A DNA stretch of 33,165 nucleotides from Ruminococcus sp. Lineage in GTDB: Bacteria; Bacillota; Clostridia; Oscillospirales; Ruminococcaceae. The translations under genes and the position numbers were made by a program. Of the stretch, positions 25,616 through 29,366 are shown in pieces. The notes beneath the pieces were generated by a model, which worked only from the letters and a program-made list of their open reading frames with translations, was not told the DNA's origin and did not search any database. Location: assembly GCA_017542475.1 (NCBI GenBank), contig JAFXXD010000011.1:1-33165 (forward strand), read 5' to 3'. Positions within the stretch are counted from its first letter, which is position 1. Every line of letters begins with the position of its first letter.

Positions 25616-26119
25616 TTATTCGGGTCTGCCTGAGGGAGGACCGCCCGCGGGAACTCCCGCTATCTTGAATGAGAGCATCATAAAGAGGGGAGTCACGATG
25701 AGTATGATGATGAATGCCGCGACAAGGCTGATAGCGAGCGAGCTCAGGAACATCACCGCAAAGGGCGGGAGCTGAGCGTTTCCGCCGCTCATTTTGTTCG
25801 CCATAAAGCGGACGAGCGCTATCATCGCGAGAGTGATCACCGGCGTGTAGATGATGTCGGAGACGAGTGCGTCAACGACCTTTGTGCCGATACTGCGCGG
25901 CTTCATATTCTTTGTGATAGCCATTGATATCTTCCGCATCGGCACGATGAAGCCGATGACAAGGCTGATCAGCGTGCTCACGATGAAGCTTATGATGAAT
26001 ACTATCGGCTTGAAGCCGCCCTCGGCGAGGAGGTTGCCCAAAAGCGAGAGGCAGAAGCTCAGTGTGATGCCCATAAATACGCTCATCAAGATACCTACAG
26101 TTTTCATTTTCTTTTCCAT
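25616..26119 (-). CDS. Four-helix membrane protein, unknown (DUF2798-like)
   Basis: 167 residues with four hydrophobic helices (about 8-30, 38-60, 92-107 and 121-152) and a basic loop (MRKISMAITKNMKPRS) after the second. The pattern resembles DUF2798-type membrane proteins, with a flexible Gly/Pro end (GVPAGGPPSGRPE). It lies between speA and speE, 15 bp before speE, so it may move a polyamine or precursor; that is guesswork from position. A second ATG five codons in is also possible. Confidence 0.78.
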   Translation of the reverse strand: MEKKMKTVGILMSVFMGITLSFCLSLLGNLLAEGGFKPIVFIISFIVSTLISLVIGFIVPMRKISMAITKNMKPRSIGTKVVDALVSDIIYTPVITLAMIALVRFMANKMSGGNAQLPPFAVMFLSSLAISLVAAFIIILIVTPLFMMLSFKIAGVPAGGPPSGRPE

Positions 26120-28453: not shown

Positions 28454-28487
28454 ATTACACACCTCAAATAATAACAAATGTGAGCTC

Positions 28488-28705
28488 AATAACCGCCGTC
28501 AGGCGGTTATTGCCCCGAACTACATTCGGGGAGCGCAAATTCTATAATAAGATGGAGAATTTGCGCATCGCATTTATTTTTGTCAAGCTCATTTTGCCCT
28601 GAAGGGCAAACCGAAGTGCAAGAAAAAGAATACAAACTATTATTTTCTTGCACTTTGGCAACTAAAAATCGGCTTTTCAAAAAAATATAAAGCCAATTTT
28701 TAGTT
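28488..28705 (-). repeat. Six back-to-back hairpins in front of speD
   Basis: Perfect or near-perfect inverted repeats tile this 218-bp stretch with gaps of mostly 1-2 bp: 28488-28511 (10-bp stem), 28513-28531 (7), 28533-28566 (11), 28593-28610 (7), 28611-28658 (16, one G-T pair) and 28660-28705 (17, one mismatch); a 26-bp gap at 28567-28592 is the only long one. None has a U-tract on the minus strand, so they are not simple terminators. They may form a structured speD leader, a double-stranded RNA-like element, or a cluster of palindromic repeats. I found no clear promoter between this array and speD. Confidence 0.8.
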
Positions 28706-28716
28706 GTGAGCAGACA

Positions 28717-28749
28717 ATAAAAAAACGTACAGACCTTTCAGCCTGTACG
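28717..28749 (-). terminator. Terminator at the end of the candidate ncRNA
   Basis: On the minus strand CGTACAG (28743-28749), a 10-nt loop and CTGTACG (28726-28732) are followed at once by seven T. No U-tract exists in the other direction, so it acts only on minus-strand transcripts, before they reach speD. Confidence 0.8.
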
Positions 28750-28757
28750 TGTATGAA

Positions 28758-28785
28758 ATCATAGCATAAAGCATAGTAACTTCAA
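28758..28785 (-). promoter_or_regulatory. Possible internal promoter pointing at the terminator
   Basis: TTGAAG (28780-28785) and TATGAT (28758-28763) with 16-bp spacing lie inside the candidate ncRNA. A transcript from here would begin almost at the terminator hairpin, giving a tiny RNA or an attenuated start for the speD operon. May be chance. Confidence 0.3.
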
Positions 28786-29007
28786 AGCGGTTTCAGAGTC
28801 TATATAAGCAAAGATACCTTTTACTACTCTTATTGACCTTTCACAAGCTGATAAAACTTATAAAAACAATAAGGCAACAGAAGTTGCCAGCCGAACAACT
28901 CGTTCGGCGGTCGGCATTTGACCCGCTGTCCGTATGGCGTTTATCTCCCGAGAGGGGAGAGGTCAAAAATCTTGCTCTGAAACCGAAGCTTCTCTGCAAT
29001 TTTATTC

Positions 29008-29036
29008 ATTTTAACATAAAATGAGATTTTTGTCAA
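29008..29036 (-). promoter_or_regulatory. Promoter of the candidate ncRNA
   Basis: TTGACA (29031-29036) and TAAAAT (29008-29013) with 17-bp spacing. Just upstream a weak GCCG/CGGC hairpin with four T (29040-29057) may end the transcript of the preceding DUF1294 gene. Confidence 0.75.
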
Positions 29037-29072
29037 TAGAAAAGCCGTCAGTGCGGCAAATTATTTTTAAAA

Positions 29073-29366
29073 TTACAGCGCCCTGATATAGGCTATGGCG
29101 AGGAATACGAGAAGTCCCGCCTGCCACGCCAGTCCTGCGACGTTTACTACCCAGAAATACCAGTGCCTGGTCTTGTGGCGGAAGAGCTTCATTCCCGCGA
29201 GAGCGCCGAGAGCTCCGCCGAAGAAGCCGAAGCCGAGGAGAGTTGCCTCCTTGGTGCGCCATTTTCCCTTCTCAGCCTTGACCTTGTCCGCCTTGTAGAG
29301 TATCAGCGCGATAAGCGACATCACCGCGAAAAATGCGGCTGCTCCGATAAGTAAGTATTTCTCCAT
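29073..29366 (-). CDS. DUF1294 small membrane protein
   Basis: 97 residues with three or four hydrophobic segments (about 5-24, 43-60, 67-95). The DUF1294 signatures YKADKVKAEKGKWRTKEATLL and LGFFGGALGALAGMKLFRHKTRHWYF-like motifs are clear. The family is of unknown function. It begins one base after the CDF transporter stop, with AGGAGG inside the end of that gene. Confidence 0.92.
   Translation of the reverse strand: MEKYLLIGAAAFFAVMSLIALILYKADKVKAEKGKWRTKEATLLGFGFFGGALGALAGMKLFRHKTRHWYFWVVNVAGLAWQAGLLVFLAIAYIRAL

Follow-up and report, generated by a model that had tools for sequence, protein, structure and literature searches.

The locus studied here raises the question of what is done by an RNA of about 283 nt that is predicted on the minus strand ahead of the polyamine operon of Ruminococcus sp. 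(GenBank assembly GCA_017542475.1, contig JAFXXD010000011.1, positions 1 to 33,165; this 33,165-nt stretch is called the window). The RNA (28719-29001) begins at about 29001, a start inferred from the position of the -10 element, and ends with a U tract, and the first gene 3' of it on the same strand is speD. A preliminary description had presented it as a structured RNA tied to polyamine genes, and it had to be decided whether it is a free small RNA (sRNA) or a leader that regulates the genes behind it, and what such a leader would sense.

The leader of this speD-decarboxylase-speE operon is probably a riboswitch that acts by transcription attenuation and responds to a polyamine, with spermidine as the likeliest ligand. 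With slightly less confidence, though still on the favourable side, it is assigned to a structurally new class of spermidine riboswitch of about 200 nt, placed over two biosynthetic routes and a transporter in Bacillota and possibly beyond. What sequence comparison establishes is a conserved fold, an association with polyamine genes, a terminator, and an aptamer segment complementary to the terminator arm; from these we infer direct ligand binding, the identity of the ligand and the direction of the response (genes off with ligand).

RNA family and gene association

The sole Rfam match at gathering level inside the leader was RF02440, "Streptococcus sRNA SpF59 (ldcC RNA)", a family with a length of 54 positions, at 28911-28965 (minus strand; 52.5 bits, gathering 37.2) and including GCCAUACGGACAGC. 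A covariance model, R1 (197 positions, 47 sequences with that of the window among them, E-values rough), was matched over positions 1-197 by a conserved aptamer-like domain of 169 nt at 28807-28975 (minus strand, 120.6 bits). In the phylum sample of 398 genomes, RF02440 was matched in 18 and R1 in 24, including all 18 RF02440-positive genomes, each across model positions 1-197; R1 was built partly from the genomes scanned, and for those the overlap with RF02440 is not independent. Because all 18 match R1 end to end, RF02440 is, by this comparison, a fragment of a more extensive RNA and lies close to its 5' end. R1 also matched 78 of the 295 genomes sampled from the order, and RF02440 one of 14 named control genomes (Lactococcus lactis). 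The preliminary description had called the RNA undescribed, subject to there being no strong Rfam hit; this word has to be given up for the 54-nt core and stands for the function, since the RF02440 title names none. Its failure to match the RNA to RNase P, tmRNA, SRP, 6S or T-box RNAs agreed with the Rfam scans, which gave no such match. The alias "ldcC RNA" hints that the neighbouring decarboxylase gene has been noticed before; to judge by the names, SpF59 is presumably the F59 of Mann et al., and SP0916 a lysine decarboxylase. A match to bglG-cis-reg below gathering (28750-28637, 29.8 bits against 80) was taken as chance.

Relatives were collected by DNA similarity in a first step (35 of 60 genomes) and by a core-pattern scan of named genomes, which gave at least 120 stretches; the resulting loci are a sample. 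Among the matches listed were Paenibacillus, Neobacillus, Bacillus, Cohnella, Heyndrickxia, Ruminococcus flavefaciens, Agathobaculum and [Clostridium] symbiosum, and contigs of metagenome-assembled genomes (MAGs) labelled Spirochaetes (L062) and Synergistaceae (L072, L133). Of 168 loci, 11 that lacked the strict core motif were left out before orientation; polyamine genes were seen for all of these, for four via another locus of the same genome.

The association with polyamine genes, strongly borne out by these loci, had no exception. Of 147 non-duplicate loci, 138 had at least 700 nt downstream (nine were too short), and the first gene, called by tblastn with representatives, was a carboxynorspermidine synthase homologue (CASDH-like) in 70, speD in 54, an Orn/Lys/Arg (OKR) decarboxylase in six, PotA in eight and any other gene in none. 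The loci fetched with R1, partly from the same genomes and with the window included, gave 52 of 52 (speD 27, OKR decarboxylase 12, CASDH 8, PotA 5). The RNA is thus a same-strand 5' leader of the genes of one pathway in 138/138 and 52/52 loci. When one representative each was compared with NCBIfam, nspC (TIGR01047) and potA (TIGR01187) exceeded the cut-off, the carboxynorspermidine synthase representative matched this sole family below it (421.8 against 800 bits), and PotB, PotC and PotD had their best hits below it as well. In the representative L055, the nspC decarboxylase comes after the carboxynorspermidine synthase homologue. The speD/speE and CASDH/nspC routes are unrelated and have spermidine as their common product, and Pot imports spermidine or putrescine. 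Two spermidine routes and a transporter, as judged from these neighbourhoods, have one RNA in common.

Conserved fold

The minus-strand fold of 28717-29036 had an energy of -101.4 kcal/mol, whereas shuffles averaged -71.7 kcal/mol (z -6.5; equalled by 0 of 100 shuffles). A wide alignment was made from 139 of the 157 oriented loci, 10 duplicates and eight loci that were truncated or without the 3' landmark being left out, and 137 of the 139 were parsed. Before the alignments A2 and A3, 12 of the 137 were removed because P1 or the 3' end was odd or missing, including a terminator-less Clostridiales subgroup described below, and four of 51 representatives (L021, L033, L094, L119) because they were wrongly trimmed or carried long insertions; the fold statistics exclude all of these.

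The comparative alignment gave the following elements, all on the minus strand. P1 is formed by GCAAGAU (28969-28975) and AUCUUUGC (28808-28815). P2 (UUUGACC/GGUCAAA, 28961-28967 with 28917-28923) and the hairpins P2a (UCUCCC/GGGAGA, 28944-28960), P2b (28924-28939, with an invariant loop) and P3 (GGCAAC/GUUGCC, 28873-28888) covary. P4 (UUAUUG/CAAUAA, 28867-28872 with 28830-28835) is almost invariant and without covariation, and P6 (AAGUU/AGCUU, 28855-28859 with 28845-28849) has one-sided changes, its 3' strand being common to the antiterminator described below. The proposed pseudoknot (AGAGU/ACUCU, 28826-28830 with 28795-28799) crosses P1 and is invariant in A2, with no covariation available.

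Over the 33 proposed pairs in A3 (47 sequences), 97.0% of the cells were paired, and pairing fell to 22-47% when partners were slid by 1-3 columns as a control. Two-sided changes were seen at 10 pairs against a shuffle mean of 3.1 (0 of 500 shuffles) and were located in P2, P2a, P2b, P3 and one pair of the P6 tip; these are the compensatory changes in homologues by which the preliminary description had proposed to check the structure. P1 was counted apart, since MAFFT shifts its 3' arm, and was paired in 84.9% against 76.7% with re-dealt arms (maximum 80.9% in 1000). An all-pairs mutual-information scan of the 139 sequences was dominated by clade signal, yet flagged pairs of P1, P2a, P2b and P3. 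The conserved, covarying fold of an aptamer was thus found, except for P4, P6 and the pseudoknot.

Outside this domain, the helix P0, by which the ends of the RNA had been described as pairing over 11 perfect base pairs, was found as such between CGGUUUCAGAG (28985-28975) and CUCUGAAACCG (28798-28788, both minus strand). Relatives keep it only in part, with an average of 8.2 of 10 pairs formed in 13 distinct sequence pairs from Ruminococcus, and its appearance differs clade by clade; own, swapped and shuffled duplexes had energies of -28.5, -24.9 and -17.5 for CASDH loci and of -23.1, -19.8 and -16.7 for speD loci. A 5' hairpin, GAAGC-UUCG-GUUUC (28979-28992, minus strand), would compete with P0, and different hairpins were seen by eye at this place in other clades. 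In an Oscillospiraceae MAG (L149, 1-1522, minus strand), the RNA has lost the AGAGU motif, and an open reading frame of 130 aa, PII-type-like by eye, lies between the RNA and potA.

Proposed expression platform and mechanism, and alternatives

A terminator between the RNA and the first gene, defined as a hairpin followed by a U tract at -10 kcal/mol or better and detected with a folding-based finder, was present in 116 of 134 loci, whereas dinucleotide shuffling, done once for each locus, left one in 2 of 134; an earlier finder for short perfect stems, which was replaced, had given 30 of 133. In the window it is an intrinsic terminator stem-loop of 11 pairs (28725-28750, minus strand) followed by six more U (U tract, 28719-28724). 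In L002, whose RNA is 99% identical to that of the window, and in L004, the terminator directly abuts the ribosome-binding site of speD.

The segment UCAGCUUGUG (28842-28851, minus strand) in the aptamer was assigned as a candidate antiterminator by its complementarity to the terminator arm: UCAGCUUGU (28851-28843) can form nine pairs with ACAGGCUGA (28746-28738, minus strand) in the 5' arm and loop of the terminator. The pairing was first noticed by eye in Ruminococcus and then tested, the hypothesis having been formed on part of the same data, and L132, lacking the motif, was left out. Over 106 distinct pairs, the duplex averaged -13.8 kcal/mol, compared with -5.7 kcal/mol when the arms were shuffled. 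In 98 of the 106 at most 5% of 60 shuffles were as strong; the sequences are related, and the counts across loci are not independent. Compensatory pairs were found in L021 (GCUUAU/AUAAGC), in L154 and L165 (GGCAUA/UAUGCC) and in L027 (UCAAC/GUUGA against UCAGC/GCUGA in other Ruminococcus), and the pairing is longer in L009 and L017. The preliminary description had seen no obvious antiterminator and had favoured a free RNA; the first statement is not borne out, given this pairing with its compensatory changes in some relatives, and the second is made unlikely by the same pairing together with the position of the terminator at speD in L002 and L004.

In the proposed mechanism, the aptamer of about 170 to 200 nt (P1-P6 and the proposed pseudoknot) would fold during transcription. 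With ligand bound, P6 would be closed and its 3' strand occupied, so that the terminator would form and transcription would end ahead of speD. When the ligand is scarce, UCAGCUUGU would pair with ACAGGCUGA, the terminator would be blocked and the polyamine genes would be transcribed. The antiterminator may form during transcription or as a pseudoknot; it may also be part of the opposite state, and the response would then run in the reverse direction. Repression by the ligand is judged likelier, as all the regulated genes seen serve to increase the polyamine pool.

Several results weigh against such a switch. A clear terminator was lacking in 18 of the 134 loci, and P4, P6 proper and the pseudoknot showed no two-sided changes. 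In the full leader of the window the antiterminator costs energy (-83.6 against -96.2 kcal/mol, 12.6 apart), in 39 truncated leaders (every third of 115) it lay 2.4-16.2 kcal/mol above the best fold, and it must either open P4 and P1 or be a pseudoknot. Within the leader, the arm paired most strongly with the antiterminator segment in only 76 of 115 loci (mean -13.8, compared with -13.2 for the strongest other stretch). Among the speD loci outside Ruminococcus this held for four of 14, and there the arms of other groups did better than the own arm (-13.1 against -11.5). Arms swapped within a group were nearly equal to the own ones (-15.0 own and -14.6 swapped for CASDH, -12.3 own and -11.5 swapped for Ruminococcus). 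When whole leaders were searched blind for an antiterminator, no group showed a gain over swapped arms, with own, swapped and shuffled values of -9.3, -9.4 and -9.4 for speD, -14.9, -14.9 and -12.5 for CASDH and -11.0, -11.1 and -10.4 for PotA, and consensus folding restricted to the Bacillales platform yielded nothing beyond the terminator. In the strain itself, a 247-bp repeat between terminator and speD may change regulation.

A Clostridiales subgroup (L059, L066, L071, L083, L111, L135, L151, L160) has a short gap between RNA and speD (63 nt in two loci inspected) and no terminator, and in some of these loci a hairpin seems, by eye, to mask the ribosome-binding site. This arrangement suggests translational control instead.

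As to the ligand, the one common to all associated genes is spermidine or another polyamine and not adenosylmethionine (AdoMet). The preliminary description had considered AdoMet or arginine beside a polyamine; both became less likely with the 70 of 138 loci that begin with a carboxynorspermidine synthase homologue, because this route uses neither directly. Sensing of a precursor or by-product (putrescine, agmatine, cadaverine, decarboxylated AdoMet or methylthioadenosine) in place of spermidine is rather unlikely overall. It would fit the six of 138 loci in which the decarboxylase, the maker of a precursor, comes first, and Pot transporters can also carry putrescine, so that putrescine, agmatine and cadaverine are possible ligands. 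AdoMet, decarboxylated AdoMet and methylthioadenosine were rejected as unlikely on pathway grounds; the CASDH/nspC route consumes no decarboxylated AdoMet and releases no methylthioadenosine.

An attenuator controlled by a protein, such as a polyamine-responsive RNA-binding regulator, should show the same genes and terminator, and a large conserved RNA can equally be a protein site; this reading is given a somewhat smaller chance than a precursor ligand. An RNA of some 200 nt whose long loops are invariant, and which occurs across many Bacillota and in the MAG contigs labelled Spirochaetes and Synergistaceae, fits a metabolite aptamer better, in our experience with known RNAs. A free trans-acting sRNA ending at the terminator, as implied by the Rfam title and the preliminary description, would agree with the presence of both a promoter and a terminator and with the transcript F59 of S. 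pneumoniae, listed as an 82-nt RNA between SP0915 and SP0916 and previously named SN20 and srn235 (Mann et al. 2012, PMC3395615), for which the passages on F59 in that source give no function. It is considered improbable, as the RNA is located before polyamine genes, the terminator adjoins speD in close relatives, the aptamer is complementary to the terminator arm, and an attenuated leader would likewise yield a short transcript. The proteobacterial speF leader, which is under leader-peptide control, is a precedent for such attenuation at a polyamine operon. For the present RNA this explanation is scarcely credible: a plausible ribosome-binding-site-like start with at least six codons was found in only eight of 137 leaders, the spacings of landmarks are spread over all three frames, and between the core and the 3' landmark each frame contains a stop in 130-136 of 137 sequences.

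Known polyamine RNAs and features of the locus

Polyamine riboswitches have long been sought. The one bacterial spermidine class met in the literature searched is a variant of SAM-I, called rare by its authors, who state that more classes are surely left to find (PMC10853860). It likewise lies upstream of speE, speB, speD and ldcC, and expression of its reporter goes up on loss of spermidine production (PMC10853860). Unlike this rare variant, the polyamine-leader RNA described here is present in 78/295 order genomes and 24/398 phylum genomes, as counted above. No SAM-family match was obtained at gathering level in the window, nor any up to E = 5 in 28500-29300, although a strongly diverged variant could escape such a scan. 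The odc1 and potE motifs are also candidate regulatory RNAs near polyamine genes and are set apart by their descriptions, odc1 being a domain at ornithine decarboxylase genes with an upstream open reading frame (uORF) mentioned in the section title, and the potE motif a weak candidate that lies roughly 200 nt ahead of potE (PMC8632094). The speF leader, mentioned in PMC11477304, is also the leader of a polyamine decarboxylase gene, and unlike it the present RNA has no conserved leader peptide. The 54-nt core is the same RNA as RF02440 and presumably as F59, the comparison with the Streptococcus family covering this core; whereas RF02440 covers 54 nt and is titled an sRNA, a 169-nt domain (197 model positions) with an expression platform is described here. 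The literature searched, which included few subscription papers and no preprints, contained no account of the regulation of polyamine genes by an RF02440-type RNA. If the proposed reading is true, a common, large aptamer unrelated to SAM-I would show how RNA selects a polycation that is small and flexible and binds to RNA without specificity. It would also account for polyamine homeostasis in many Bacillota of gut and soil, and would supply a function for an Rfam family whose title says no more than sRNA.

The anatomy given in the preliminary description was correct as a whole, including the long-range helix. A near-consensus promoter and a strong terminator around about 285 nt without a plausible gene had been noted, and the corresponding RNA has about 283 nt and holds no conserved small open reading frame by the leader survey above. 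The promoter is of the sigma-70 type (TTGACA-17-TAAAAT, 29008-29036, minus strand), with 11 of 12 consensus letters and TG ahead of the -10 element. By count alone, promoters were not in excess (two sites against a shuffle mean of 1.7), and terminators numbered four against 0.8. The gene expected next on the strand was indeed speD (adenosylmethionine decarboxylase, TIGR03331, 27683-28453), followed on the minus strand by an Orn/Lys/Arg decarboxylase (PF01276, 26242-27690), a 167-aa protein and speE (spermidine synthase, TIGR00417, 24749-25600). The 167-aa protein (25616-26119) is without a Pfam or NCBIfam match and was found again in several Ruminococcus operons.

Between the terminator and speD lies the 247-bp dispersed repeat (28470-28716), which contains several strong hairpins (fold z -14 for 28470-28724). 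It is probably a recent insertion, because it is absent from the same site in L002 and L004. The repeat has 29 matches in its own genome, itself counted, many of them partial and several at contig ends, and is matched in 14 of 36 genomes of the genus.
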